Source: Patiriisocius marinistellae (lineage in GTDB: Bacteria > Bacteroidota > Bacteroidia > Flavobacteriales > Flavobacteriaceae). Taken from it: a stretch of 64,000 nt of DNA. The position numbers and the translations under genes are program-made. A model generated the notes under the pieces. It saw nothing but the letters and a program-made list of their open reading frames with translations, was not told the DNA's origin and did not search any database. Location of the stretch: contig NZ_BKCF01000005.1 in assembly GCF_009014635.1 (NCBI RefSeq), positions 62,001-126,000 of the forward strand. The letters are read 5' to 3'. This document shows positions 36,993 to 51,068 of the stretch, in pieces (positions within the stretch are counted from its first letter, which is position 1; every line of letters begins with the position of its first letter).

Positions 36993-37027
36993 AAAAACGA
37001 GTACTCTAATTTTGAGTGCTCGTTTTT
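36993..37027 (+). terminator. terminator closing the dcw cluster
   Basis: AAAAACGAGTACTC (36993-37006) pairs with GAGTGCTCGTTTTT (37014-37027), with one G-T pair, around a 7-nt loop and ending in T residues. Confidence 0.88.
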
Positions 37028-37278: not shown

Positions 37279-37911
37279 ATGACAAAGAAGACAGCAGAGA
37301 CAGCATCATTTATGGTGCGCTTTAATCAGAAAATTTATACAGAAAAAGGAGAGAACAAAGTGCAATGGCGTGGTAAAGTGAGTCATGTACAAGGTGGTGA
37401 AGAACTTAATTTTTTAGACTTTAATGATGCGGCAGCTTTTATTCAAGAACGTTTGGCTGCACTTACTTTAGATGCTACTCAAGATAAGTCTACTGAGGAG
37501 CAAGAGAGTATACTAAAAAAGAGTTATTCTCTGTTTAAGACATTTGCTGCTACAGGTCCGCAGTTTTTAAAAGAAACATTGAAAGATCCTCGAAAGCAAG
37601 TAGCGCATTTACAAGATCAACTAAATGAATACGGAGAAGAGTTGCTTGAAAAAGTGCCTATTGATCAATGGCGAAATGCTTCAAAATCTGATTTTCAAGA
37701 TATTAAAGAGTCGATAAGTGCGCTAACAATAGCGGTTGCAAAGTTAAATAAAAAGGTAGAATCTTTAAATGGAGCTACGCTAGAGAAAAAGCCTGCATCA
37801 AGAAAAACTACAGTAAAGAAAACACCGCCAAAAAAAACTCCAGTTAATAAAAGTACTGTAAGTATTAAAAAAAAGACTACAGCAAAAAAGGCTAAACCTA
37901 CAAAGAAGTAA
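37279..37911 (+). CDS. soluble protein with lysine-rich histone-like tail
   Basis: The 210-residue protein has an N-terminal part (1-80) with alternating strands and VQWRGKVSHVQGGEELNFLDF, a helical middle (about 85-155, GPQFLKETLKDP to ALTIAVAKLNKKVESL) with coiled-coil character, and a tail from about 160 made of Lys, Thr, Pro and Ala repeats (KKTPPKKTPVNK). Such tails bind DNA or RNA without sequence preference and also occur on granule-associated proteins such as PhaF. It is 8 bp upstream of the BTAD regulator and probably co-transcribed with it. I do not recognise a family for the N-terminal part. Confidence 0.7.
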   Translation: MTKKTAETASFMVRFNQKIYTEKGENKVQWRGKVSHVQGGEELNFLDFNDAAAFIQERLAALTLDATQDKSTEEQESILKKSYSLFKTFAATGPQFLKETLKDPRKQVAHLQDQLNEYGEELLEKVPIDQWRNASKSDFQDIKESISALTIAVAKLNKKVESLNGATLEKKPASRKTTVKKTPPKKTPVNKSTVSIKKKTTAKKAKPTKK

Positions 37912-37919
37912 ACGGCTTT

Positions 37920-38723
37920 ATGATTGAACTCACTACACAGCTTGATGAGCTTCTTAAATTTCAAGAAGAAGCACTTATAAGGTTTCAAACCTTAGGCAAT
38001 TTTGTGCTTTGGCGTGAGGGAGTAAAAGTGAATTCTAAGGATTGGGGAAGAGATAAAACAGTACAACTTATACAATACCTTATTTGTTATAGACAGCGGC
38101 ACGCTCTCCATAAGGAACATATTATGGAGCACCTGTGGGAAGAAGGTGATGACCGTGATTTTAAAGTGGCGCTACACGGAGTTAATAAAATATTAGAGCC
38201 AGACAGACCTTCTCGTACAGAACCACTATATGTAGAGCGCCAGGGTGTTACATACCAGCTCAACTTAGAAAAAGTATGGATAGATGCAGAAGCTGTTGAA
38301 AAATACATTGCAATCGGTAATGAAGCGCTTGCTTCTAATATTGTTTGTGCAAAAAAAGCATTTAAAGCTGCAATTTCAATGTATCAAGGGAGTTATTTGC
38401 CTAATAGGATTTTTGAAGACTGGACTACAGAAGAAAGAGAAAAACTTCAAATTTTAATTTTAGGTGCTTATACCGTACTTGCAGAATTGATTGTTGAAGA
38501 AAATCCTATGGAAAGTGTACGCCTTACACAACAAGCGATTGCCATAGATGCTACATGGGAAGACGCATACAAAATTCAGATGCAAGCTTATATTGCAAAA
38601 GGGAATCGTCCTCAGGCATTAAAAACTTATCAAAAATGTGTTGATGTACTTGATAAGGAATATGGCATTGATCCATTACCTGCAACTAAAAATCTTCTTA
38701 AAGAGATTGAAGCTATAGCTTAA
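37920..38723 (+). CDS. BTAD (SARP-like) transcriptional regulator
   Basis: The 267-residue protein has an N-terminal winged-helix-like domain (about 1-110, with FQTLGNFVLWREG and KTVQLIQYLICYR) and a C-terminal bacterial transcriptional activation domain of TPR-like helices (about 120-265, FKAAISMYQGSYLPN, RLTQQAIAIDATWEDAYKIQMQAY, ALKTYQKCVDVLDKEYGIDPLP). This is the layout of SARP-type activators, which bind 11-bp-spaced direct repeats near promoters. Two such repeat sets lie just downstream, before the phasin-like genes, so those genes are its likely targets. SARP-type activators are best known from Streptomyces. Confidence 0.85.
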   Translation: MIELTTQLDELLKFQEEALIRFQTLGNFVLWREGVKVNSKDWGRDKTVQLIQYLICYRQRHALHKEHIMEHLWEEGDDRDFKVALHGVNKILEPDRPSRTEPLYVERQGVTYQLNLEKVWIDAEAVEKYIAIGNEALASNIVCAKKAFKAAISMYQGSYLPNRIFEDWTTEEREKLQILILGAYTVLAELIVEENPMESVRLTQQAIAIDATWEDAYKIQMQAYIAKGNRPQALKTYQKCVDVLDKEYGIDPLPATKNLLKEIEAIA

Positions 38724-38727
38724 AGTA

Positions 38728-38737
38728 CTTCGGAAAT
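38728..38737 (+). repeat. CTTCGGAAAT word
   Basis: One exact copy of the recurrent word starts 4 bp after the regulator stop. A degenerate reverse copy (ATTTCCGCGA) follows within 30 bp, so a weak hairpin may form at the 3' end of this transcript. Confidence 0.55.
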
Positions 38738-38829
38738 ATATTTATTTTAAAATTTCCGCGAAAGCGAAATCCTTACTATCAAAGAGTTTCTATCTATTTT
38801 CAATATTAATTTTCTTGTTTATAAGTTAT

Positions 38830-38865
38830 CTGTAACTCATCTGTAACTGCTTGATTATATGTTTG
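38830..38865 (+). promoter_or_regulatory. promoter 1 with 11-bp direct repeats (SARP-type site)
   Basis: CTGTAACT occurs at 38830-38837 and again at 38841-38848, an 11-bp period. A TATGTTTG -7 element follows at 38858-38865, 9 bp after the second repeat. SARP activators bind repeats with this period and a similar distance to the -10 box. The -33 position is covered by the repeats and has no good TTTG, which fits an activator-dependent promoter. Confidence 0.65.
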
Positions 38866-38906
38866 CAGCATAAAAATTAATAATCCAATCTCACAATACA
38901 CATATT

Positions 38907-39164
38907 ATGGCAACAAAACCAAAAAGAACAAAGCAAACACTTATTGAAAAAGCAGCGAACGGAGCACTTGCTTTAACTACTAAAGCAAATGACTTTGCAC
39001 TTAAAACAACGGAGCGTGCTTTTAAAACTTCTTTTAAAATGACAGAGAAATGTATGGGTGTTACTTATAAGATGGTAAAAAAAGGATTAGAGGTTTCTGC
39101 AACTCAGCAAGAAATGACTTTTGATGTTTTGAATAGTATTAAGAAAAAAGTAATTAAAAAATAA
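38907..39164 (+). CDS. small phasin-like protein 1
   Basis: An 85-residue, basic, almost fully helical protein without signal peptide. Its motif KANDFALKTTE near residue 30 and the C-terminal TQQEMTFDVLNSIKKK recur in the 95-residue protein two genes downstream, so the two are paralogues. Length, amphipathic helices and lack of Cys resemble phasins, which coat polymer or lipid inclusions, but the sequence is too short to prove this. The gene has its own promoter with direct repeats. Confidence 0.65.
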   Translation: MATKPKRTKQTLIEKAANGALALTTKANDFALKTTERAFKTSFKMTEKCMGVTYKMVKKGLEVSATQQEMTFDVLNSIKKKVIKK

Positions 39165-39189
39165 AACGCTAAATATCTAGCAATCAACT

Positions 39190-39225
39190 TTGCAACTCAT
39201 CTGTAACTCGCAGATTGTATGTTTG
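39190..39225 (+). promoter_or_regulatory. promoter 2, near-duplicate of promoter 1
   Basis: TTGCAACT (39190-39197) and CTGTAACT (39201-39208) repeat with an 11-bp period, and TATGTTTG lies at 39218-39225, again 9 bp after the second repeat. The segment from the repeats to GCATCATA aligns with promoter 1 over about 40 bp with few changes. Confidence 0.65.
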
Positions 39226-39264
39226 CATCATAATTAAAACAATAACATAAAAACAATATATAAA

Positions 39265-40290
39265 ATGGCTACAACAAAAAAGAATATAACTAAGAAGACT
39301 GCTACAAAAGCAACATCTAAAGTAAATAAATTGAACAACTCATTAGTAAATGCTTCAATGGCAGCGATCAATACAACTGTTGAAAATGGAGAGAAATGGC
39401 AAAAATTGACTAAAAAATTAATTAAGCAATCTGAGCCTATTCGCACGAAGCAAATGAATATGATTTTTGAAACTGCAACTGCTGTAAAAAATCAAGCGAC
39501 CTCTGGAAAAGAGCGTATGATGGATTTAGTAGGGTATGATGGAACTACTGTAGATAAAGCGGTAAAGTACGCAAAAAACAATCCTGTTAGTAAAAAAGTA
39601 ATTAGCACTGCAGAAGGTGTAATTGAGAAAGTTACAGAGAACCCGATGGTGAAGAAAGTTGAAAAAACAACTGACGGAATCAAAAAAATGAGCATCGCTA
39701 AATTTAACGATGTAAAAGAAGATGTTCTTGAACAAGCTCAAAAAATACTTCATAGAGGAGAAGAGATTGTAGAAGATGCTAAAGCTCCTAAGAAAACTTC
39801 AAAGCAAGTAAAGGCTAAAGGTGCTGCTAAAGTAAAAGCGGTTCGTAAGACTACAACTAAGAAAACTACTGTAGCAAAGAAAGCTACTGCAAAAAAGGTA
39901 AAAGCTGTAAAAGAAACTGCTAAAGCGATTGTAAAGGAAGTAAAAGCTCAGGGTACTGATAAGGTAGCTGATATTAAAGAAACTGGAAAAGAAAAAGTTG
40001 CAGAAGTAAAAACAGCTACTAAGAAAGCGGTAAAAACTATAGCAAAGGATGATTTAAAAATTATTCACGGAATTGGACCTAAATTAGAAGGTGTTTTTAA
40101 TAAAAATGGAATAAACACTTACGGTGAACTTGCAAAAGTTGATGCTACTAAGATTGAAGCGATTTTAGATGAAGCTGGACCTGTATTTAAAAATATTGAC
40201 ACAAAGGACTGGAAGAAACAAGCAGAGGTAGGTGCAGAAGGTGGTGAAGAGGCTCTTAAAACATGGGTAGCTCGTTATAGAACTGTATAA
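39265..40290 (+). CDS. phasin-like, histone-H1-like protein with helix-hairpin-helix end
   Basis: Three parts in 341 residues. Residues about 10-165 are a helical region resembling phasins (SLVNASMAAINTTVENGEKW, then IFETATAVKNQATSGKERM). Residues about 165-260 are a Lys/Ala/Thr/Val tail of the histone-H1/AlgP kind (KKATAKKVKAVKETAKA). Residues about 262-341 form a helix-hairpin-helix domain (LKIIHGIGPKLEGVFNKNGI) of a type found in DNA-binding and L21-associated proteins. Phasin plus basic tail is the plan of Pseudomonas PhaF, which links storage granules to the nucleoid. The extra domain adds a second possible nucleic-acid contact. Confidence 0.7.
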   Translation: MATTKKNITKKTATKATSKVNKLNNSLVNASMAAINTTVENGEKWQKLTKKLIKQSEPIRTKQMNMIFETATAVKNQATSGKERMMDLVGYDGTTVDKAVKYAKNNPVSKKVISTAEGVIEKVTENPMVKKVEKTTDGIKKMSIAKFNDVKEDVLEQAQKILHRGEEIVEDAKAPKKTSKQVKAKGAAKVKAVRKTTTKKTTVAKKATAKKVKAVKETAKAIVKEVKAQGTDKVADIKETGKEKVAEVKTATKKAVKTIAKDDLKIIHGIGPKLEGVFNKNGINTYGELAKVDATKIEAILDEAGPVFKNIDTKDWKKQAEVGAEGGEEALKTWVARYRTV

Positions 40291-40321
40291 TTAATGATTA
40301 TAATTTTATAAAATATACAAG

Positions 40322-40609
40322 ATGAAAAAGAAAGTAAATGTGAAGAACGCTAAAGGAATGATTTCTAAGGCAATGAATACTTCAAAAACAGCAGTAACAA
40401 AAGCAAATGATTTTGCTTTAAACACTACAGAGGTTGTGGTTACTGGATCATTAGAAGCTACTGCACAGTGGCAAACAGTTGCAGATAATGCTATTAAAGG
40501 TGGTCTTAAGCTTGCTAAAAACCAACAAGATTTAGTGTTTGACGTATTAAACGAAATTAAAAGCCAAGTAAAAGAAAGTAAAAAGAGATTCTCAAAACTT
40601 GTGGCTTAA
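40322..40609 (+). CDS. small phasin-like protein 2
   Basis: A 95-residue basic helical protein, paralogous to the 85-residue protein upstream (shared KANDFAL.TTE and QQDLVFDVLNEIKSQ). It follows the histone-like gene by 31 bp, without a new promoter, and ends before a terminator, so it is co-transcribed with the gene before it. A coat protein for intracellular inclusions is the best guess. No enzymatic motif is present. Confidence 0.65.
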   Translation: MKKKVNVKNAKGMISKAMNTSKTAVTKANDFALNTTEVVVTGSLEATAQWQTVADNAIKGGLKLAKNQQDLVFDVLNEIKSQVKESKKRFSKLVA

Positions 40610-40640
40610 ATATTAGATTTTAAGTAATTAATAATTGGAA

Positions 40641-40679
40641 GAAACCGAGTTGTATATTATAATGCAGCTCGGTTTTTTT
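40641..40679 (+). terminator. terminator after the phasin-like genes
   Basis: AAACCGAGTTG with CAGCTCGGTTT (one G-T pair) forms the stem, followed by seven T residues. It separates the phasin-like genes from the lipid enzymes. Confidence 0.85.
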
Positions 40680-40818
40680 ATTTAAGAAAAGCACATTAAA
40701 TACATTCTAATTTTGCTATTTTTAACAAAATCTGCTTTTTAAAATCCTTTTAGTATTTATTGTGTTTTATAAAGTCTGAAATGAGGTATATTAAATTAAT
40801 TAGTATTTGTTGTAAATT

Positions 40819-41472
40819 TTGGCCAAACAAAACAAAATAACGGAAGCACACATTATCGATTTTTATATGGATGATGTAACAAATCTAGGTGAAAAACCAG
40901 ATGATGTTGAATTGTTTGCTGCATCACATAAATTTGAAGCAGCGCAATTTTATAAACATTTCGAAGATTTTAAAGATTTAGACCGTAGCATTTTTAAAAT
41001 CCTGATTGACACATCTATCGCCACACTTGCAGAAAGTGGAGATTTTATTTCGTTTAATAAAAAAGACAAACTTTTAAGTCTATTTTTCACCTTCTTTGAA
41101 AACCTGAATTTAAATAGAGATTTTTGTGTTATTACTATAAAAAGTTATGGAATTAGTTTGAGTACTTTATCATTATTTTCTGAGCTTAAAGAAAGTTTTA
41201 TACAATTTATGGACTCTTTGAAACTCGAGACTTTAAGTATTAACCTTGAAGCGTTAGAGTCTATCCAGAAAAAATCAATAAATGAAGCTGCTTGGGTACA
41301 ACTTTTGCTTACTATTAAATTTTGGATGACAGATGAATCTGAGCAATGTCAAAAAACAGATATTTTCATTGAAAAATCTATTAATACCAGTCTAGAACTG
41401 CTCAATACTCAATCGCTAAATAATATTATTGATTTAGGAAAATTTCTGTACGCCGAAAAATTTAAGTCCTAA
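40819..41472 (+). CDS. TetR-like protein, degenerate DNA-binding region
   Basis: A 217-residue all-helical protein starting at TTG (MAKQNKITEAHIIDFYMDD). The N-terminal 60 residues have the outline of a TetR helix-turn-helix (KFEAAQFYKHFEDFKDLDRSIF resembles the end of the recognition helix and the helix after it), but the usual Gly and hydrophobic pattern is weak. The rest matches a TetR ligand-binding fold in length. It is 9 bp upstream of the ABC1 kinase gene and heads the lipid-enzyme operon, so it may regulate that operon or serve as an accessory factor. Confidence 0.6.
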   Translation: MAKQNKITEAHIIDFYMDDVTNLGEKPDDVELFAASHKFEAAQFYKHFEDFKDLDRSIFKILIDTSIATLAESGDFISFNKKDKLLSLFFTFFENLNLNRDFCVITIKSYGISLSTLSLFSELKESFIQFMDSLKLETLSINLEALESIQKKSINEAAWVQLLLTIKFWMTDESEQCQKTDIFIEKSINTSLELLNTQSLNNIIDLGKFLYAEKFKS

Positions 41473-41481
41473 AAGAATATT

Positions 41482-42804
41482 ATGAAAACTACTAAAGATA
41501 TACCACTATCAAAAATACACCGCGCTTCTAAGTTATTGCAAACAGGAGCAAAAGTGGGTGTAAATTATCTTAAATATTATGGAGATAAGATGGTGAGTTC
41601 AGAAGAAGAAGCAAAAGAGCGCTTAAATGAAAATAATGCAAATGATATTTACGACAGTTTAAAAACTCTTAAAGGTAGTGCGCTAAAAATGGCTCAAATG
41701 ATGAGTATGGAGAAAAATATAATGCCTAAAGCATTTGTAGAAAAATTTTCGCTATCTCAATTTTCGGTGCCACCATTATCTGCTCCTTTAGTTTTAAAAA
41801 CGTTTAAAAAATCTTTTGGAAAATTTCCAGATCAATTATTTGATAGCTTTAATACAACAGCTACAAATGCAGCTAGTATAGGGCAGGTACATCAAGCAAA
41901 AAAGGATGGAAAAATCCTTGCGGTAAAAATCCAGTACCCTGGGGTAGCGCATAGTATTCAATCAGATCTAGCCATCGTAAAGCCAATAGCGATGAAAATG
42001 TTCAATATAAAAGGGGAGCATTCTGAGCGTTATTTTAATGAAGTTGAAAATAAGCTTATTGAAGAAACAGACTATGTTCTAGAATTAGAGCAAAGTGAAG
42101 AAGTAGCAAAAGCTTGTACACATATTTCCAATCTCCATTTTCCAGTATATTATCCAGAATATTGCTCAGATCAAATCATTACAATGGATTGGATGAAAGG
42201 TATTCACTTGTCTGAATTTACTCAAATTAATACGGATCAAGAAGTAGCAAATAAATTAGGGCAGGCGCTTTGGGACTTTTATATGTATCAAATTCATGTC
42301 TTACGTAAAGTTCATGCAGATCCCCATCCCGGCAATTTTTTAGTTTCTGAAACTAACGAACTCGTTGCGCTTGATTTTGGTTGTATGAAAATGATACCAG
42401 ATACATTTTATAATCCTTATTTTGAGCTTTTTAAAAGGGATGTAATTGATGATCCAAAAAGCTTCAAAAAAAATCTTATGGCTTTGGAAGTGTTACGAAA
42501 GGATGATTCAAAAGAAGAACTTACATTTTTCACACAGATGTTTTACGAGGTGTTGGAGTTATTTATTTCGCCATTTCAAAATGATACTTTTGATTTTTCA
42601 GACGAGACATTTTTTGAGAAAATTTCGGCATTAGGAGAACAATATATGAAAAAATCAAACCTTAAAAATATGAATGGAAATAGAGGATCTAGACATATTA
42701 TTTATATGAATCGTACCTTTTTTGGGCTTTTTAGCTTGATGTTTGACCTTAAAGCAAAAAATATTAAAATTCGAAATTATAACACTTTCGCGTTAGCAAA
42801 ATAA
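41482..42804 (+). CDS. ABC1/UbiB-family atypical kinase
   Basis: A 440-residue cytoplasmic protein of the ABC1 (UbiB/COQ8) family. Visible are the KxGQ-like helix region LKGSALKMAQMM (about 63-74), the alanine-rich loop ASIGQVHQA (131-139), lysine 149 in AVKIQYPG, the catalytic HADPHPGNFL and the metal-binding ALDFGCMK. Members act as ATPases or kinases that support lipid, often prenyl-lipid, metabolism. Here the gene lies between a TetR-like protein and WS/DGAT, so a part in neutral-lipid synthesis or storage is inferred. It is unlikely to be the ubiquinone UbiB, since flavobacteria use menaquinone. Confidence 0.85.
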   Translation: MKTTKDIPLSKIHRASKLLQTGAKVGVNYLKYYGDKMVSSEEEAKERLNENNANDIYDSLKTLKGSALKMAQMMSMEKNIMPKAFVEKFSLSQFSVPPLSAPLVLKTFKKSFGKFPDQLFDSFNTTATNAASIGQVHQAKKDGKILAVKIQYPGVAHSIQSDLAIVKPIAMKMFNIKGEHSERYFNEVENKLIEETDYVLELEQSEEVAKACTHISNLHFPVYYPEYCSDQIITMDWMKGIHLSEFTQINTDQEVANKLGQALWDFYMYQIHVLRKVHADPHPGNFLVSETNELVALDFGCMKMIPDTFYNPYFELFKRDVIDDPKSFKKNLMALEVLRKDDSKEELTFFTQMFYEVLELFISPFQNDTFDFSDETFFEKISALGEQYMKKSNLKNMNGNRGSRHIIYMNRTFFGLFSLMFDLKAKNIKIRNYNTFALAK

Positions 42805-42837
42805 AATTAATCACCCATTAAATTGCATATAACAACA

Positions 42838-44676
42838 ATGGCAAAGAAATTAGATATAAAAGATATTGTACAAGACGCTCTAGATGGCTCAATTAAACAG
42901 ATTTCAGGTTCAGATGCAGCTTTTTTATATGCTGAATCACCTACAAGTCCTATGCATATTGCATCATTGAACATCGTTGAAGGCTCCTTAAATTTTAAAG
43001 ATTTTAAGAAAATTGTTGCTTCAAAAATGCACTTGATTCCAAAATTTCGCCAACGATTGCTTAATGTGCCAATGAATCTAGATTATCCTTATTGGGTAGA
43101 TGATCCTAATTTTGACTTAGATCTTCATCTCAACCGTATAAAGTTGCCAGATCCTTCTAATTGGAAGACATTGAGGTCATTAACCTCTAGTATTTTCAGT
43201 GCGCCGTTAGATCTTCGCCGTCCATTGTGGTCAATTCATTTTATTGAAGGAATTGATGAGATTGCTCAAGTACCTAAGGGTTCAGTAGCAATTGTAAGTA
43301 AAGTGCATCATGTAATGATAGATGGTAGCTCTGGAGTAGGAATTATGGGTGTGCTTTTCGACAATGAAAAGAATTTAAAAGATATTAAGCGTGATGCTCC
43401 TAAATCCTTTGATCCAGATCCATTACCGGATGATTTGAGTTTGCTGCTTAAAAGTGGATATGGTTTTATAAAAAATCCGTTTAAAATACCTAAAACTATT
43501 GTTGAGACTACATACTCTTTTATAAAAAACAAAGCTTCTAAGACGCTTAGTATACAAAAAGAGTTTGCTTCTGCTAGGTATCCAGTTCCTATTACGATTT
43601 TTAATGAAAATATTTCAGCAAAAAGAACTTGGGGAACAGCAATATTATCATTTGATCGTATTAATACACTTCGCAAAATAACTGGTGGAAGTGTAAACGA
43701 TATTATTCTTGCTTTTTGTGCTGGAGCAATTCGGAAATACCTTAAAGATAGGGAGAAATTGCCTCTACAGCCACTTGTAGCAAATGTGCCTATATCCATT
43801 CGTGGAGAAGATACATCTCATAATAATCAAATTGCAAATATGATGATACAACTAGCGACTCACATAGAAGATCCGCTAGAGCGTCTTGAATATATTCAAG
43901 AACAAACAATGTTAGGGAAGTCTAGACATAAAACAATGGGAGCTAAAACGTTATCAAAAATGGCAGATGCTGTTCCTTTTGGTTTAGCAAACTTAGCTGC
44001 TGGATTGTATAGCAAGTACAATATTAAGGACTTACATAGACCTCCATTTAATGTTACAATTACAAATGTTCCTGGACCTCGTAATACACTCTATCTTAAT
44101 GGTCATAAAGTAGTTTCTGTTTTTACACTTACACCAGTTGTTGATGGATTTGGTCTTATTATAGCGGCTTTTAGTTATAACGAAAATGTAACCATTACAG
44201 CAACTTCAGATGCTAAAACAATGCCTGATGCAGATAAGTTTGCTCGTTACATTCGTGAGTCTGCAAATGAACTTGAAAAAATTATTTTAGATAATGAAAA
44301 GGCTAAAGTTAAAGTAACTAAAGTCAAAAAAGATAATAGTAAAAGTGCTTCATTCTTTAGTACGTTTAAACGGTATTTAAACAAACAAAAATCCATTGAT
44401 AGTAAATTAAAAGGGATTTACCATATTGATGTAGATATGGGTGTAACCAGTCAATGTTGGGAAATAAACCTTACACAAGAAAAGCCTACAATAAAGAAGT
44501 CAAAAAACCTCGATCCTACTACTTTAATGGAAATTGAAGACGCAAATTTATACGATTTATATAAGGGTAATTTACTTTTTGATGAGTTGAAAATTCAACA
44601 ACGATTAAAATTATCTGGAACTGTAGCAAACAAGAAAAAGTTTACTAACCTTCTTAAGGCTTTTTTGAACAGATAA
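42838..44676 (+). CDS. wax ester synthase/diacylglycerol acyltransferase with SCP2-like tail
   Basis: WS/DGAT enzymes acylate fatty alcohols or diacylglycerol to make storage wax esters or triacylglycerol. The active-site HHVMIDG (HHxxxDG) lies at residues 157-163, and PLWSIHFIEG, NDIILAFCAGAIRKYL, ANVPISIR and NVPGPRNTLY are typical. The 612 residues (ATG at 42838; an in-frame TTG lies five codons upstream) exceed the usual length of about 460-500. The extra C-terminal region (about 500-612, YHIDVDMGVTSQCWEINL and LYDLYKGNLLFDELKIQ) looks like an SCP2 sterol-carrier lipid-binding domain. It lies 1 bp before the monoacylglycerol-lipase-like gene. Confidence 0.9.
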   Translation: MAKKLDIKDIVQDALDGSIKQISGSDAAFLYAESPTSPMHIASLNIVEGSLNFKDFKKIVASKMHLIPKFRQRLLNVPMNLDYPYWVDDPNFDLDLHLNRIKLPDPSNWKTLRSLTSSIFSAPLDLRRPLWSIHFIEGIDEIAQVPKGSVAIVSKVHHVMIDGSSGVGIMGVLFDNEKNLKDIKRDAPKSFDPDPLPDDLSLLLKSGYGFIKNPFKIPKTIVETTYSFIKNKASKTLSIQKEFASARYPVPITIFNENISAKRTWGTAILSFDRINTLRKITGGSVNDIILAFCAGAIRKYLKDREKLPLQPLVANVPISIRGEDTSHNNQIANMMIQLATHIEDPLERLEYIQEQTMLGKSRHKTMGAKTLSKMADAVPFGLANLAAGLYSKYNIKDLHRPPFNVTITNVPGPRNTLYLNGHKVVSVFTLTPVVDGFGLIIAAFSYNENVTITATSDAKTMPDADKFARYIRESANELEKIILDNEKAKVKVTKVKKDNSKSASFFSTFKRYLNKQKSIDSKLKGIYHIDVDMGVTSQCWEINLTQEKPTIKKSKNLDPTTLMEIEDANLYDLYKGNLLFDELKIQQRLKLSGTVANKKKFTNLLKAFLNR

Positions 44677-44677
44677 T

Positions 44678-45613
44678 ATGCATTATAATACCCATACCTT
44701 TACTGCCAATGATGGCGAAATCATTTGTTATTATAAATGGAGTTGTGATTCAGCTATTTCTCAACGAGGTATTATTCAAATAGCGCACGGTATAGGCGAA
44801 CATGCAGGACGGTATGATACTATTGCACACCGATTACAAAAAGAAGGATTTACTGTATATGCCAATGATCACCGAGCCCATGGTAAAACTGCAGAAGTTA
44901 AAAGGCTTTTTGGCTATTATGACGGTGGGGATTATTTTAAGGATGTGGTAGAGGATATGCATAGTCTTTCACAACTTATGCGGGAAGAAAATCCTAATAA
45001 AAAGTTTATTCTTTTTGGTCATAGTATGGGCTCCTTGCTTAGCCGTAAATATGTACTCAAATTTGGCAATGAAATTGATGCTTTGATTCTTTCTGGTACA
45101 GCAAACTTTATAAAAGGCTTAGGACATTTTGGACTTGCAGCTACTAAGGCCGTTGTTGCAATTAGAGGTCGAGAGAGAGGGAATGAAACCTTACGGACTT
45201 TATTTTTTGATGAATTTAATAAAAAATTTAAGCCTAACCGTACAAAACTGGATTGGATAAGTAGTGATGAAAATGCTGTAGATATATTTGAAGCAGATCC
45301 TTATCGTATTGAAAATTTTTCTTTAGGAGTATTTGCAGATATTATTTCAAATTCACGCTTATTAAATAAAAAAGAGGCATTTATAAAAACGCCTGATAAT
45401 CTCCCCATATTAATATTTTCAGGAGATAAAGATCCTGTAGGAGAGATGGGAAAAGGGGTTACAAAAGTGGCTGAAAAATATAAAAATAATGGCAATGAGG
45501 ACCTTACATTTAACCTTTATGAAGATGGTCGTCACGAGATGCTGAATGAAACTAATAGTAAAGAAGTAGAAGAAGACATTATAACGTGGCTCAACCTACA
45601 AATCCCCAAATAA
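44678..45613 (+). CDS. monoacylglycerol-lipase-like alpha/beta hydrolase
   Basis: A 311-residue serine hydrolase of the lysophospholipase/monoglyceride lipase group (serine aminopeptidase S33-like). It has HGIGEHAGRY, NDHRAHGKT, nucleophile elbow GHSMGS (Ser116), an acid in FSGDKDPVG and a His in DGRHEMLNE. No signal peptide is present. It starts 1 bp after the WS/DGAT stop and its stop abuts the next gene, so it is firmly in the operon. It may release fatty acids from partial glycerides during lipid turnover. Confidence 0.88.
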   Translation: MHYNTHTFTANDGEIICYYKWSCDSAISQRGIIQIAHGIGEHAGRYDTIAHRLQKEGFTVYANDHRAHGKTAEVKRLFGYYDGGDYFKDVVEDMHSLSQLMREENPNKKFILFGHSMGSLLSRKYVLKFGNEIDALILSGTANFIKGLGHFGLAATKAVVAIRGRERGNETLRTLFFDEFNKKFKPNRTKLDWISSDENAVDIFEADPYRIENFSLGVFADIISNSRLLNKKEAFIKTPDNLPILIFSGDKDPVGEMGKGVTKVAEKYKNNGNEDLTFNLYEDGRHEMLNETNSKEVEEDIITWLNLQIPK

Positions 45614-46783
45614 ATGAACGATAAACTGCCCTTATATAAAACCTTTATAAAATTTGCCGCTACGCTAGGCACTCTCAATGGATTATCAATTTCAGAAAGT
45701 AAAAAAGTACTTTTAAATAATTTTGAGATACACCCTAATAATGAGCAAATTTTGCCGCTTATTGAAAAATTAGAAATTGAACAAGATGAGGATATACGGT
45801 TTTTATTTAATGAGTGTATTCGCATTTGCGATGAGCTAGGTCCTAGTCGAGAATATATCACTTTGTTAGTAATTCTTGAGGGGATTACTTCAATAGTTTC
45901 AGAAAACGGAACGCTAAAACAAAATGAAATTGCGAATTCAGTACTTCAAAAATTTAAAGATGAAATTACCTTAATCAACCAGAAAATACCTAAACCTCCA
46001 TTATTTAATATGTTATTAGAAACACGTTCACTTATAGAATGGACGTCAATCTATTGTATTTATCCTTTTATTCCGAAACGGATTAAAGGTGAAGGTCGTC
46101 CCGTTTTGTTGATACCACCGTACTTAGGAGATGATTATTCTACATCATTTGTCCGAAAGTATTTAACATCACTTGGATTTAAAACCTATAAATGGGAAAT
46201 GGGTTTTAATATGGTTAAATCACATTATATTCCTAGATTAGAAGAAAAATTAGACGATATTTATCAAGCACATGGTGAAAAGGTAAGTATAGTAGGCTGG
46301 AGTGGAGGAGGTATTTTCGCAAAGATTATGGCAAATCGTCATCCTAATCAAGTAGAACAAATAATAACAATTGCATCACCAGTATGGGGTGTAATGGAGA
46401 TGAAAACACCAGTGTATGGTATTCTAGAGTTTTTTAGAGGAAAGTCCTTAAAAGACAGAAATAAAAGATTTCTAGAAGAACTTGAGCCTATACCTGATGT
46501 GCCAGTAACCTGTATTTATACAAAAACTGATGGTCTTGTACCTTGGAAACACTGTATGGAAGCAGAGAGCTACCGCAACAATATTCGTAACATCGAAGTT
46601 TTTGGGAGCCATTCTGGTCTTGGTGCAAATGCTAGTGTACTTCTGATAACTGCAAATGCATTAAGCGCTAATATTCAGGGACAGACGATCCAAGAGGCTA
46701 CAAACAATATAGAGCGAGTGCTATATCCATTTTATTGGAAAAATAAAAAACGTAGATTCTCTTTTAAGAAGAAAAAAATATAG
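45614..46783 (+). CDS. alpha/beta hydrolase with extra helical N-terminal domain
   Basis: 389 residues. Residues 1 to about 135 are helical, rich in Glu/Asn, without a match I know. Residues about 155-389 are an alpha/beta hydrolase: VLLIPPYLGDDY, nucleophile elbow GWSGGG (Ser230), ASPVWGV, TKTDGLVPW (acid) and GSHSGLG (His). The fold detail resembles lipases and, more distantly, PHA synthase/depolymerase relatives, but the nucleophile is Ser, not the Cys of PHA synthases. It is flanked by lipid genes on both sides with 0 and 16 bp gaps, so an acyl-ester or acyl-CoA substrate is likely. Confidence 0.75.
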   Translation: MNDKLPLYKTFIKFAATLGTLNGLSISESKKVLLNNFEIHPNNEQILPLIEKLEIEQDEDIRFLFNECIRICDELGPSREYITLLVILEGITSIVSENGTLKQNEIANSVLQKFKDEITLINQKIPKPPLFNMLLETRSLIEWTSIYCIYPFIPKRIKGEGRPVLLIPPYLGDDYSTSFVRKYLTSLGFKTYKWEMGFNMVKSHYIPRLEEKLDDIYQAHGEKVSIVGWSGGGIFAKIMANRHPNQVEQIITIASPVWGVMEMKTPVYGILEFFRGKSLKDRNKRFLEELEPIPDVPVTCIYTKTDGLVPWKHCMEAESYRNNIRNIEVFGSHSGLGANASVLLITANALSANIQGQTIQEATNNIERVLYPFYWKNKKRRFSFKKKKI

Positions 46784-46799
46784 TTATAAGTTAAAACCA

Positions 46800-49700
46800 A
46801 TGGAACATATAATCAACCATCCCAATTTTCAAAAAGCCTTAAAACGAGTAGCGAGAGAAGAAGATATCCCGTTAGCAAAAGTGCAAAAAGAAGGAGAGAA
46901 ATACATCAGAGAATTGTATGCGGAGCAACACCCAATGGCAAAAATGCTGTCCGTTCGTGGGTTTGATTATATTCTTTCTAGAGCTTATAGTGACAAAATT
47001 GATGTTGACCCTAAGGGGATTAAAAAGTTGATGAAGTTAATGCGTCAAAATTCTGTCGCATTTATAATGACACATAAAACATATTTAGACACCTTAGTTC
47101 TTATATCAACTTTAGCTCGCTATGGGATGCCAGTTCCATATTCTTTTGGAGGCAAAAATCTTGCTTTTCCAGGGCTTAAACAATTAGGTAACAACGCTGG
47201 ACTTATTTTTATTCGTCGAAGCTTTAAAGACAATGCTATTTATAAGGTAGCATTACGTCACTACATATCTACAATTATTGATAAAGGGGACCATCTCACT
47301 TGGAATATTGAAGGAACTCGCTCTAGAACAGGAAAAATTCTGCACCCACAAATGGGCATCTTAAAGTATATTATGGATGCTGAAAAGCAGAGTAGTAAAT
47401 CCATAAAATATGTTCCTGTCTCTATTGTTTATGACCTTATCCCAGATGTAAAGGAGATGACAGAACAAGCTAAAGGTGGACAAAAACAATCTGAAAATCT
47501 TAAAAAAGGGTTTGACTATGTACGTAATTTAGCAAACGATTTTGGTCGTGCAGCTATACGTTTTGGTGATCCTGTTGAAATGGATGATAGTCATAATGCA
47601 ATAGTACCTCAATTAGAAGAAAATACATACAAGAATAAAAATTCACTACCAAGATTTGCTTTTGAGCTTATTCATCAAGCTTCAATGATAACACCTGTTA
47701 CAACAGTTTCACTAGTTTGTAATGTACTGCTCAATGATTTTGCCCTTACCAAAAAGGAGATAGAGTTTAAGGTGAATAAGTTGATGGAATATATTGAAAA
47801 AAAACAACAAAATTCATTGCTTGATAGAGGCAATCCTATTGCTGTAAGCATTCAGAAAGCTCTTAATTTATTGCAAGGAGCAGGAATTGTTCAAAAAAGC
47901 CGTGCAGGTCAAAAGGCACAGTATAGTTTAATCTCATCAGAATATCTCCCAGCTACGTATTATGCAAATATGGCTGCGGGACATTTTTATCATGCCGCCT
48001 TCATAGAAATGGCACTTGCTAAAATTAAGGATGATACTTCTAAAAACCGTATTGTACGTTTTTGGGAAGAGATTATGAATTTACGAAACTTATTTAAGTT
48101 TGAATTTTTTTATACAAATAAACCCAAATTTAGCGCGGAGATTGAAGAAGAATTGAGTCGTTTTCATAGAAATTGGCGCTCTATATTAAGTGATCCATCT
48201 AAAAATGTGGAAGACATTTTGAAGAAGCAAAATTTATTTGTTTCTAGAGCACTTTTATTGACATATTTAGAGGCAGATAAAGTTGTTTGTCACACGCTCA
48301 ATAATTGGGATGAAGATGACAAATTTAAACCAGCTGAGTTTCTAGAGCTTTGTATGTTTAAAGGTAAAGAATTACACTGGCAAACGCGTATTACAAGATT
48401 AGATAGTGTTTCAAAACCATTTTTGAGTAATGCTTTACGTTTTGCTGAAAATGCAAAATTGACACCTGTAAACCAGCAACTAGATTATAAAAAGCTAGAA
48501 AATTGGATGTTGCAATTAGAAGACCTTACGCAGAGGCTAGCATATCTCAAATCTATTGAAGTTGATCCTAGTGTAAAAGTACTTGAGCAAATGGCAAGCC
48601 AGCAGGGTCTTGTTCCGCTTTCTGAGGACAAAGCAAAAATAAAAAAAGCAGATGCTCAAGAGGGTGGACCACATATTGCTGCGTATTTTGATATGGACAG
48701 AACACTTATCAATGATTTTTCGGCAAAGAAGTTTATGACCACTCGTTTATTTAGTGGTGCAACAACAATTAAAGAATATCTCACGCAATTTATGACGGCG
48801 CTTGTATTTTCATTTGGAAATAGAGATTTTGAAATTTTGACAAAAATAGCAGCCTTAGGAGTTAAAGGAATTTCCGAAAAGTCTTTTGTTCAATTAGGTC
48901 AGGATGTTTTTGATGATTATTTAGCAACTACAATATATCCCGAGTCGAGGAAACTTGTGGAAAAACATTTAGAACTAGGGCATAGAGTGGTTATAATTTC
49001 CGCAGCTACTACATATCAAATAGAACCTATTGCTAGGGAGTTAGGAATTTCCGAAGTATATGCAACAAGAATGGAGCTTCGTAAAGGTAAGTTTACAGGT
49101 CGTGTTGCTGAGATGTGCTGGGGAGAAGGTAAGGCTCGCGCTGCTCGTACTTTTGCAAAAAAGAATGATATAGATCTTTCAAAAAGCTTTTTCTACTCAG
49201 ATGCTATAGATGATTACCCACTTTTTAAAATTGTAGGTAACCCAGTAGCAACAAACCCTGATAAAGCACTTTCTCAAGTTGCTTTTGAAAATGATTGGCC
49301 TATTTTGCGTTTTGAACAACCTGCTGTGAAACCTGTTGTAAATGGGTTGCGAACTGGGCTTGCTATTGCTAGTATTTATCCTTCTGCAATGAAAGGAGCG
49401 GTTAAGGGGTTAATAACAATGTCTAGGCAGGAAGCGGCAAATACTACTTTTGCAAGCATAGGTAATTTAGGGACTAAACTAGCAGGTCTAGAGGTTTCGG
49501 TTAAGGGTGCTCACAACTTAAAAGATTTTCGTCCAGCGGTATTCTGCTTTAATCATCAAAGTGCAGCAGACTTTTTTATTTTGATGAAAATTTTAAGAAA
49601 CAATATTACGGGTGTTGCAAAAAAGGAATTAGAGAGAACTCCTATAGGTCCTATTTTTTCAGCTTTAGGAGCGATATATGTAGATAGAAGTAATAAAGAG

Positions 49701-50033
49701 AAAGCTATTGAAGCTATGGAGCCAGCTGTAGAGGCATTAAAAAATGGAATATCTGTCGTCATTGCCCCAGAAGGTACGCGTAGTGGTAGTGTTGAGCTTG
49801 GTAAGTTTAAAAAAGGAGCTTTTCACTTAGCAATGCAAGCTGGAGTACCCATTATCCCTATTGTGATAAAAAATGCTTATAAAGCAATGCCAAAAGGTAC
49901 CACGGCATTACGACCAACACATATTGAGGTAGTAGCTCTAGATCCAGTTGATACTGGTTTATGGAAATTAAAGGATATTGATAAGAATATTGAGTATGTA
50001 CGTAATCTTTATTTAAAAGAACTCAACAATTAA
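46800..50033 (+). CDS. PlsB-like acyltransferase/HAD phosphatase/PlsC acyltransferase fusion
   Basis: A 1077-residue protein with three enzyme modules. Residues about 1-350 look like a glycerol-3-phosphate acyltransferase: HKTYLD (His92-Asp97, HX4D) and EGTRSRTGK (from 171); the region after it (350-610) resembles the helical C-terminal part of PlsB. Residues about 625-830 are a HAD-IB phosphatase (YFDMDRTL, nucleophile Asp631, acid Asp633; SDAIDDYPLF). Residues about 885-1077 are a PlsC 1-acylglycerol-3-phosphate acyltransferase (NHQSAAD, His919-Asp924; PEGTRSGS, Glu991). One chain could turn glycerol-3-phosphate into phosphatidate. HAD-PlsC fusions are known in actinobacteria. Confidence 0.88.
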   Translation: MEHIINHPNFQKALKRVAREEDIPLAKVQKEGEKYIRELYAEQHPMAKMLSVRGFDYILSRAYSDKIDVDPKGIKKLMKLMRQNSVAFIMTHKTYLDTLVLISTLARYGMPVPYSFGGKNLAFPGLKQLGNNAGLIFIRRSFKDNAIYKVALRHYISTIIDKGDHLTWNIEGTRSRTGKILHPQMGILKYIMDAEKQSSKSIKYVPVSIVYDLIPDVKEMTEQAKGGQKQSENLKKGFDYVRNLANDFGRAAIRFGDPVEMDDSHNAIVPQLEENTYKNKNSLPRFAFELIHQASMITPVTTVSLVCNVLLNDFALTKKEIEFKVNKLMEYIEKKQQNSLLDRGNPIAVSIQKALNLLQGAGIVQKSRAGQKAQYSLISSEYLPATYYANMAAGHFYHAAFIEMALAKIKDDTSKNRIVRFWEEIMNLRNLFKFEFFYTNKPKFSAEIEEELSRFHRNWRSILSDPSKNVEDILKKQNLFVSRALLLTYLEADKVVCHTLNNWDEDDKFKPAEFLELCMFKGKELHWQTRITRLDSVSKPFLSNALRFAENAKLTPVNQQLDYKKLENWMLQLEDLTQRLAYLKSIEVDPSVKVLEQMASQQGLVPLSEDKAKIKKADAQEGGPHIAAYFDMDRTLINDFSAKKFMTTRLFSGATTIKEYLTQFMTALVFSFGNRDFEILTKIAALGVKGISEKSFVQLGQDVFDDYLATTIYPESRKLVEKHLELGHRVVIISAATTYQIEPIARELGISEVYATRMELRKGKFTGRVAEMCWGEGKARAARTFAKKNDIDLSKSFFYSDAIDDYPLFKIVGNPVATNPDKALSQVAFENDWPILRFEQPAVKPVVNGLRTGLAIASIYPSAMKGAVKGLITMSRQEAANTTFASIGNLGTKLAGLEVSVKGAHNLKDFRPAVFCFNHQSAADFFILMKILRNNITGVAKKELERTPIGPIFSALGAIYVDRSNKEKAIEAMEPAVEALKNGISVVIAPEGTRSGSVELGKFKKGAFHLAMQAGVPIIPIVIKNAYKAMPKGTTALRPTHIEVVALDPVDTGLWKLKDIDKNIEYVRNLYLKELNN

Positions 50034-50066
50034 ATTATTGAAGTAACTGAAATTAAAACCAATGTT

Positions 50067-51068
50067 ATGAAATTAAAAGTAGGATTATTGGGTGGTGGTT
50101 CTTGGGGAACTACCGTAGCTTCATTAACGTCAAAAAACGCAAAAACTACGCTTTGGGCAAGAAATCAAGAAACTGTCGATGAAATTAATGAGCATCACAC
50201 TAATAGCAAATATTTACCTGGGGCACTTTTGCATAAAGGTTTAAGAGCATCATCAAGTATTGAGGAAGTTGTGAGCACGGCAGATGTTTTGGTAATGGGT
50301 GTGCCTTCTCAACATTTTAGAGATGTTCTAAAAGATGCGAAAAAATATATAAGACCGTGGATACCTATCGTAAGTCTCGCTAAAGGATTAGAACTTGGTA
50401 CAAAAATGAGAATGACTCAAATTATTGAAGAAGAACTACCAGGTCATCCAGCTGGGGTACTTACGGGACCAAACCTTGCCAAGGAAATTCATAGCGGTCA
50501 AGCTGCAGCTGCAGTTATAGCTATGGTTGATAAAACAATAGCAAAAGAGCTACAAGGAGTTTTTAATTCGGGACTCTTTAGGGTTTACAGAAATACAGAT
50601 GTAGTAGGCTGTGAGCTGGGCGGAGCATTAAAAAACATTATGGCGATTGCTACAGGAATGGGAGATGGTGCAAATGCTGGTGATAATACGCGTGCTGCAT
50701 TGATTACAAGAGGACTATCTGAGCTTACCAGACTAGGTACTGCGATGGGAGGACGCCGTCGTACATTTGCTGGCCTTGCAGGCATGGGAGATTTAGTAGC
50801 CACGTGTTCAAGTTCAAAAAGTAGAAATCATCATGTAGGGTTTGAAATAGGAAGAGGTAAAAGTCTAGAACAAATCATTGCGGAGATGAATGAAGTCGCA
50901 GAGGGAGTAAAAACAGCAAAAGCGGTTATGGAACTTGCTAAAGAACATAATGTGAGCATGCCTATTTCTGAGGAAGTCTATAAAGTATTGTATGAAGGAA
51001 ATTCTGTTTACGATGCTTTCAAAGGGCTTATTAACTTAGAGAGTGGCTCAGAAGCAGAACCAGGATAG
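50067..51068 (+). CDS. gpsA: NAD(P)-dependent glycerol-3-phosphate dehydrogenase
   Basis: GpsA reduces dihydroxyacetone phosphate to sn-glycerol-3-phosphate, the backbone of glycerolipids. The 333-residue product has the nucleotide-binding LGGGSWGTT, VPSQHFRDVL, SLAKGLE, GPNLAKEI, catalytic Lys in ELGGALKNIMAIA, and GLAGMGDLVATC. It follows the acyltransferase fusion by 33 bp and so would feed its substrate directly to the protein encoded next to it. It is the last gene of the lipid operon. Confidence 0.95.
   Translation: MKLKVGLLGGGSWGTTVASLTSKNAKTTLWARNQETVDEINEHHTNSKYLPGALLHKGLRASSSIEEVVSTADVLVMGVPSQHFRDVLKDAKKYIRPWIPIVSLAKGLELGTKMRMTQIIEEELPGHPAGVLTGPNLAKEIHSGQAAAAVIAMVDKTIAKELQGVFNSGLFRVYRNTDVVGCELGGALKNIMAIATGMGDGANAGDNTRAALITRGLSELTRLGTAMGGRRRTFAGLAGMGDLVATCSSSKSRNHHVGFEIGRGKSLEQIIAEMNEVAEGVKTAKAVMELAKEHNVSMPISEEVYKVLYEGNSVYDAFKGLINLESGSEAEPG

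Follow-up and report, generated by a model that had tools for sequence, protein, structure and literature searches.

Does a flavobacterial genome hold a dedicated locus for making, coating and mobilizing neutral-lipid inclusions? The question is raised by twelve genes, all on the + strand, at positions 37279-51068 of a 64,000-nucleotide stretch (the window) of the 3.3-Mb genome of Patiriisocius marinistellae (contig NZ_BKCF01000005.1). Their products, P1 to P12 in gene order, include a BTAD regulator (P2), four small or lysine-rich phasin-like proteins (P1, P3, P4 and P5), a TetR-fold protein (P6), an ABC1 kinase (P7), a WS/DGAT acyltransferase (P8), two alpha/beta hydrolases (P9 and P10), a PlsB-HAD-PlsC fusion (P11) and a GpsA (P12). 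The genes listed in an original prediction, which was made from the letters of the window, were all present, and most of their families were confirmed by profile scans. Our analysis indicates that this is a dedicated neutral-lipid inclusion locus, most likely for triacylglycerol (probability about 0.78); its assignment to neutral-lipid inclusions is well supported, and triacylglycerol is the likely product.

Co-occurrence and conservation of the twelve genes

WS/DGAT genes are rare in Flavobacteriaceae, occurring in 9 of 249 genomes and 7 of 202 genera. Seven of the nine carriers, including the genome of the window, have the identical twelve-gene order, with one extra phasin-like gene in one of these seven loci (L012). 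Of the remaining carriers, G108 has a locus cut by a contig end inside the WS/DGAT gene, and G072 has a permuted locus with its TetR-ABC1 pair elsewhere in the genome. This gene arrangement is beyond chance. The genes flanking the window locus, ftsA, ftsZ and acs (acetyl-CoA synthetase), had no match in the eight relative loci compared, and the locus therefore does not lie at one fixed site.

Comparison of the nine carriers with 71 Flavobacteriaceae genomes lacking WS/DGAT (80 of the 249 in all) revealed that most locus genes track the acyltransferase, in counts that are not a probability because the carriers are related to one another. P1, matches to a phasin-like model under E 1e-8, and the PlsB part of the fusion (GPAT_C) were each found in 9/9 carriers and 0/71 non-carriers. 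Weak phasin-like matches occurred in three non-carriers (E 3.6e-4 to 9.1e-4, covering ~43-56 positions of frames of 265-288 amino acids (aa)) and once outside the locus in carrier G108 (E 9e-5); these four were counted as unrelated. Co-occurrence of phasin-like genes with the lipid enzymes was the check that the original prediction had named beforehand as able to overturn it, and, the three weak matches aside, the genes did co-occur. GpsA of the locus type (77-100% identical) was present in 8/9 carriers, the exception being G108, whose locus is split between contigs, and in 0/21 non-carriers tested. A second GpsA type (28-34% identical) was found in 21/21 non-carriers and 8/9 carriers. The distribution of GpsA and PlsB indicates that the locus brings its own glycerolipid pathway, usually alongside the ordinary GpsA. 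In carrier G175 the sole GpsA found was the locus copy, which may have taken the place of the ordinary one in that genome.

A broader scan took in 84,980 species, with a single genome per species. It began with two peptide patterns, which limited its reach to close relatives of P1, and it yielded 51 P1 loci: 46 flavobacterial, four from Saprospiraceae metagenome-assembled genomes (MAGs) and one from an Anaerolineales MAG (L110). This set overlaps the Flavobacteriaceae genome set (L061 is L011), and the two are not independent. A BTAD gene adjoined P1 in 50 of the 51 loci, the remaining one (L111) ending inside P1. WS/DGAT was present in 47, the exceptions being three loci on short contigs (L083, L104 and L108) and L110. 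Phasin-like genes were present in 45; L088, L090, L108 and L111 were cut short, L097 (Tenacibaculum) showed none in the 10 kb covered, and L110 had other granule genes. Two gene orders predominated, one opening with P1, the order of the window (24 loci), and one with the WS/DGAT-to-GpsA block first and P1-BTAD after it (20 loci), and three Saprospiraceae loci had a reduced gene set. In 12 of the 51 loci the stretch included a relative of glycerol kinase or GlpD. At L013:10035-13211 the two form one 1058-aa reading frame beside WS/DGAT. Two of the loci, L087 and L090, come from different contigs of one Polaribacter filamentus genome and represent either a second copy or an assembly duplicate. 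Dokdonia sinensis and Winogradskyella ursingii are, like P. filamentus, carriers available in culture. P1 was not found on plasmids in PLSDB, queried with the window and L110 proteins.

The idea that every Bacteroidota WS/DGAT gene belongs to such a locus was rejected: thirteen neighbourhoods fetched from 23 WS/DGAT matches in other Bacteroidota families (L042-L054) held no other locus gene in the fetched stretches, and their WS/DGAT proteins were 22-27% identical.

P1 and the BTAD regulator in two phyla

P1 (37279..37911, 210 aa) consists of a small N-terminal domain, a helical phasin-like body and a lysine-rich tail. The adjoining gene (37920..38723) encodes P2, a SARP-like regulator with a BTAD domain (PF03704, 61.8 bits against a cut-off of 22.1). 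No match to the N-terminal winged helix Trans_reg_C was listed for the P2 of the window, and the L110 regulator matched it weakly (E 0.11).

The Anaerolineales locus places this gene pair in a polyhydroxyalkanoate (PHA) operon. Its order is BTAD, P1, a small protein that looks helical and had no family match, class I PhaC (TIGR01838, 650.7, cut-off 622.65), a PhaE-like protein (PF09712, 35.7 against 25.7), a second PhaC of class III type (350.4, slightly short of the 365.3 cut-off) and an SDR reductase. When 301 Chloroflexota genomes were searched with the P1 alignment, three proved to have a full-length P1: the L110 genome itself, G624, from which a row of that alignment had come, and G639 and G756, both new. 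In each of them a BTAD gene adjoined P1, and a PhaC homologue lay no more than ~2.1 kb from P1; for G639 and G756 the L110 proteins served as tblastn queries. Seven further Chloroflexota genomes gave eight matches (L126-L133) to the P1 N-terminal domain alone. Their reading frames measure 71-148 aa, and seven of the eight stretches include a BTAD gene, in some cases up to ~3 kb away. These short proteins near BTAD genes raise the possibility that the domain is a general BTAD partner.

The presence of P1-BTAD near phaC in Chloroflexota and near WS/DGAT in Bacteroidota links P1 and its regulator to storage granules in both phyla and for both kinds of stored material. The pair thus appears to be a module for storage granules that polyester and neutral-lipid inclusions have in common, which suggests a control part shared across different granules. 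This cross-phylum link is the best evidence for the granule reading, and it is independent of the weak phasin similarity described below.

Coat candidates, lipid enzymes and putative transcription units

The original prediction had described three small phasin-like or histone-like proteins; such proteins are present, and the candidates number four. In addition to P1, these are P3 (38907..39164, 85 aa) and P5 (40322..40609, 95 aa), which are small, basic and related to each other, and P4 (39265..40290, 341 aa), which has a phasin-like head, a histone-H1-like stretch rich in lysine, alanine and threonine, and a C-terminal helix-hairpin-helix. P3, P5 and the P4 head form one related family. No known family reached its cut-off for P1, P3, P4 or P5 in the profile scans. 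Phasin_2 matched one of 17 proteins in the P3/P5 set (E 0.029), TIGR01837 matched one of nine in the P1 set (E 0.069), and P4 matched PhaH through its lysine-rich stretch only (22 bits against a cut-off of 250). There were single weak matches to Perilipin (E 0.0073) and, for P4, Apolipoprotein (E 0.0033), but unrelated families scored alike, and the Perilipin, Phasin_2 and Apolipoprotein matches are suggestive only. Matches in PDB sequence searches with P1 and the phasin-like set were taken as coiled-coil or chance. The predicted structure of P1 has, at low confidence, a small sheet-helix domain followed by long helices. P3, P4 and P5, with the P1 tail, are basic, with an isoelectric point of ~10 and 17-20% lysine, and the basic stretches of P1 and P4 in the window carry net charges of +16 and +21. 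The helix-hairpin-helix was present in five of eight aligned P4 proteins and in 9/44 by a crude motif search. Droplet coating by P1, P3, P4 and P5 is probable, with indirect support from the way the phasin-like proteins follow WS/DGAT across genomes and from the place of P1-BTAD in PHA operons of Chloroflexota. The basic stretches of P1 and P4 may tie the droplet to the nucleoid, a suggestion for tethering and segregation whose sole basis is their lysine richness.

The lipid enzymes carry the motifs expected of catalysts. P8 (42823..44676) is a WS/DGAT (TIGR02946, 402.3 bits against a cut-off of 309.95), predicted to be an acyl-CoA:diacylglycerol or fatty-alcohol acyltransferase, with an SCP2-like C-terminal domain that scored slightly under its cut-off (20.4 against 21.3 bits). 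Its HHxxxDG motif is present in the window protein and in 42/42 near-full-length homologues. The alpha/beta hydrolase P9 (44678..45613) had GxSxG in 41/41 homologues; its best PDB matches were unnamed alpha/beta hydrolases (E 1e-37 to 1e-34), followed by monoacylglycerol lipases matching over the first 145 residues (E 1e-18 to 1e-11), a distant likeness. The second hydrolase, P10 (45614..46783), is lipase- or esterase-like with family scores below cut-offs, and had GxSxGG in 42/42. P11 (46800..50033, 1077 aa) unites GPAT_C, HAD and acyltransferase domains, that is, a glycerol-3-phosphate acyltransferase, a HAD phosphatase and a lysophosphatidate acyltransferase, in one protein. Its Hx4D, EGTRS and DxDxT motifs are present in the window and in 21/22 full-length homologues, none of them from loci in the window order, where the fetched stretches end too early. 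The motif test counted only open reading frames of at least 90% of the query length. P12 (50067..51068) is a second GpsA (glycerol-3-phosphate dehydrogenase), different from the other copy in the genome. Enzyme families, catalytic motifs and co-occurrence lend good support to the earlier claims of lipid synthesis and mobilization.

The two genes between the coat candidates and these enzymes have a distribution of their own. P6 (40819..41472) had been called TetR-like. The fold stands, but the head is probably not DNA-binding: a profile scan found a TetR-like C-terminal domain, TetR_N was not among the 15 families listed for 37 P6 homologues at E 0.1, and residues 9-50 have a net negative charge in 36 of the 37. 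Foldseek placed TetR and FadR structures first, with COQ9 not among the 50 matches listed; VIA-align ranked COQ9 third to sixth, with FadR entries within 1 Z unit of it. We regard P6 as COQ9-like, with an acidic head that probably does not bind DNA, and as probably not a DNA-binding repressor. P7 (41482..42804) is an ABC1/UbiB-family atypical kinase or ATPase (PF03109, 186.6 bits against a cut-off of 22.9) that has relatives in the PDB and lies far below the UbiB equivalog cut-off (TIGR01982, 150.8 against 487.55 bits). Its catalytic loop motif was found in 37/37 homologues, of which six come from ABC1 loci whose stretch has no WS/DGAT. TetR-like and ABC1 genes were present in 9/9 carriers, and inside the locus in eight, but also in 49/71 non-carriers, in all 49 less than ~150 bp apart as judged by eye from coordinates. 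The COQ9-like/ABC1 pair is an independent flavobacterial module, probably recruited to the locus, since it is paired in those 49 genomes without WS/DGAT. The COQ9-like gene lies directly upstream of the ABC1 gene as a conserved pair, for example in L055-L058 and L060, and L059 (G142:C1:2843852-2845159) has a second ABC1 gene, 69% identical to that of the window, with no TetR-like partner in its stretch.

Eight of the 11 intergenic gaps are shorter than 35 bp, and the others measure 183, 100 and 209 bp. A terminator-like hairpin at 36993-37027, found by a generic terminator scan, parts the locus from ftsZ; that scan found 8 terminators against 7.5 in shuffles, no excess. A second terminator-like hairpin with a T run lies in the P5-P6 gap (40642..40679, + strand), unlisted by the generic scan because its loop of 18 exceeds the limit of 8. 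A scan allowing loops up to 21 found a hairpin and T run 3' of the last phasin-like gene in 29/33 loci, compared with 1/40, 3/39, 1/23 and 0/20 in other in-locus gaps, which served as the control in place of shuffled sequences, and 6/30 upstream of P1. Because this conserved hairpin splits the locus between P5 and P6, it suggests two transcription units in the window order, one for coat and regulator and a following one for synthesis. A single operon under one regulator, as first proposed, was rejected as stated; the idea of one regulator is also weakened by a P6 that probably does not bind DNA and by the independence of the TetR-ABC1 pair from WS/DGAT. A Bacteroidetes-type promoter pattern occurred ahead of P1 in 2/30 stretches and nowhere in the other sets of gaps. 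For the promoter-pattern, charge and motif tests, L010-L017, L041 and L013 were dropped as duplicates.

Proposed mechanism, alternatives and known systems

We propose that the private GpsA would supply glycerol-3-phosphate, which the PlsB-HAD-PlsC fusion would convert to lysophosphatidate, phosphatidate and then, via its HAD domain, diacylglycerol; the WS/DGAT would add an acyl group to give triacylglycerol, and P9 and P10 would mobilize the stored lipid. P1, P3, P4 and P5 would form the droplet coat, and we hypothesize that the basic stretches of P1 and P4 serve as ties to the nucleoid. As a further hypothesis, P1 and the BTAD regulator could act as a granule-sensing pair in which P1, sitting on the inclusion, would report the state of its surface to the regulator: the N-terminal domain would dock the regulator, the phasin body would dock the inclusion, and the free surface would set coat-gene transcription. 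The COQ9-like/ABC1 pair, with the SCP2 tail of P8, might pass a membrane lipid substrate to the acyltransferase. The combined proposal, a portable P1-BTAD granule-surface sensor serving polyester in Chloroflexota and droplets in Bacteroidota together with an ATP-driven lipid hand-over through COQ9-like, UbiB-like and SCP2-WS/DGAT parts for droplet growth, is put forward tentatively, as possible rather than probable.

Several observations weigh against the inclusion reading. The phasin families PF05597, PF09361 and TIGR01837 stayed below cut-off in P1, P3 and P5. P1 has a weak basic tail in Saprospiraceae and the permuted loci and none in L110, and the P1 model is poor (pLDDT 52) and was used only as a domain hint. 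One locus on a long contig, from Tenacibaculum aquimarinum (L097:10001-17000), has P1-BTAD and the lipid enzymes with no phasin-like gene in the 10 kb covered. No lipid data on the carrier organisms were found. Finally, a search with PF07993 for the fatty acyl reductase of a wax route was uninformative, matching 30/30 genomes and 14/14 controls, and is unable to tell whether a fatty-alcohol route for wax exists.

That search bears on the possibility that wax esters, and not triacylglycerol, are the product. Bifunctionality is frequent among WS/DGAT enzymes; however, GpsA, PlsB, PlsC and HAD make glycerolipid precursors that wax esters do not need, and none of the twelve genes was seen to encode a fatty acyl reductase, which makes a wax product very unlikely. 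Regarding the coat, P3, P4 and P5, with the P1 tail, might instead be histone-H1-like proteins of the nucleoid, with DNA compaction during starvation as their task and shared regulation as their only tie to fat storage. Their basic composition and, in P4, the KTA-rich stretch and helix-hairpin-helix fit such a role, whereas P3 and P5 have no H1-like repeat, L110 has, in a PHA operon, a P1 that lacks the basic tail, and P1 and the phasin-like proteins co-occur with WS/DGAT; we consider this explanation quite unlikely.

That P6 is a conventional TetR repressor, sensing acyl-CoA and regulating the lipid genes, is in our judgement unlikely, and the idea was downgraded. Its TetR fold, the Foldseek order, the closeness of FadR to COQ9 by VIA-align and its place at the head of the second transcription unit speak for a repressor, but the absence of TetR_N from the families listed, the acidic head, the VIA-align rank of COQ9 and its persistence beside ABC1 in genomes without WS/DGAT speak against one. 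That the genes are neighbours through shared ancestry alone, with no functional unit, is scarcely credible: the distribution is patchy and spread as a block is possible, but the same set is kept in two gene orders and a reduced set in Saprospiraceae, the TetR-ABC1 pair lies elsewhere in G072, and the 13 other Bacteroidota WS/DGAT loci lack these genes.

The original prediction held that such a unit is not described for Bacteroidetes. For the whole unit this stands, as neither it, the P1-BTAD granule module nor the COQ9-like/ABC1 pair in Bacteroidetes was found in the literature covered (titles and the starts of abstracts, with most subscription journals outside the scope), which is weak evidence of novelty. 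It does not stand for a WS/DGAT with an SCP2 tail beside an acyltransferase/hydrolase, which is in print (PMC10351704). As far as the available text of that study (PLoS One 2023) goes, Bacteroidota WS/DGAT proteins are ~613 aa long, two of the four sequences showing an SCP2 domain, adjoin a putative acylglycerol-phosphate acyltransferase/hydrolase, and have similar proteins in Polaribacter, Winogradskyella, Dokdonia and others, and neutral-lipid synthesis and accumulation in Bacteroidota are called unexplored. Searches of its main text for these terms gave neither TetR nor ABC1 and a single mention of phasin, on a Pseudomonadota scaffold.

The synthesis genes resemble the Mycobacterium tuberculosis cluster Rv2482c-Rv2485c (PlsB2, HAD-PlsC, WS/DGAT and LipQ), where, according to the sections available, PlsB, PlsC, WS/DGAT and an esterase likewise lie side by side (PMC10699116). 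PlsB and PlsC are separate genes there, in contrast to the fusion in the window. The HAD part belongs to Rv2483c. The same sections of PMC10699116 name no P1-like, BTAD, phasin-like, COQ9-like or ABC1 neighbour.

Among PHA granule proteins, which include the PhaF/PhaI phasins, PhaM and the PhaR regulator, PhaF combines a phasin body with a histone-like tail (PMC5658603, in part), a plan that P1 and P4 may share, and PhaR is a regulator that reads the granule surface, as proposed for P1-BTAD (PMC9049629, in part). The locus proteins are not members by sequence of the phasin families, and, unlike PhaR, the locus regulator is a BTAD protein whose granule contact would reside in a separate partner, P1. 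Comparable proteins of lipid inclusions are the actinobacterial TadA/HBHA and PspA and MLDS of Rhodococcus, among which lysine-rich tails and DNA binding occur. TadA/HBHA and PspA also regulate the size and shape of lipid bodies, according to the available sections of PMC10699116. None of the TadA/HBHA, PspA and MLDS families had a match listed in the scans made of the locus proteins, and, in contrast to these actinobacterial coats, several coat-like genes here share one locus with synthesis genes.

The P6-P7-P8 segment, in which a UbiB-family kinase adjoins a COQ9-like lipid-binding fold and the protein that follows bears an SCP2-like domain, resembles COQ8-COQ9 and UbiB-UbiJ. COQ8-COQ9 and UbiB-UbiJ act as lipid modules, and the ABC1 kinases of plastoglobules offer a parallel. 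Unlike those modules, P7 scores far below the UbiB cut-off, and none of the twelve genes looks like a quinone gene. The locus may offer bacterial cases of a UbiB-family kinase tied to storage lipid rather than quinone. In sum, the locus, carried by some marine flavobacteria, provides genes with which lipid-droplet biogenesis in Bacteroidota can be tested, and the occurrence of P1-BTAD across PHA and fat inclusions suggests that coat and control parts are exchangeable between chemically different granules. What is new is the locus as a variant of known lipid-storage systems, and the cross-phylum granule module is its most interesting part.

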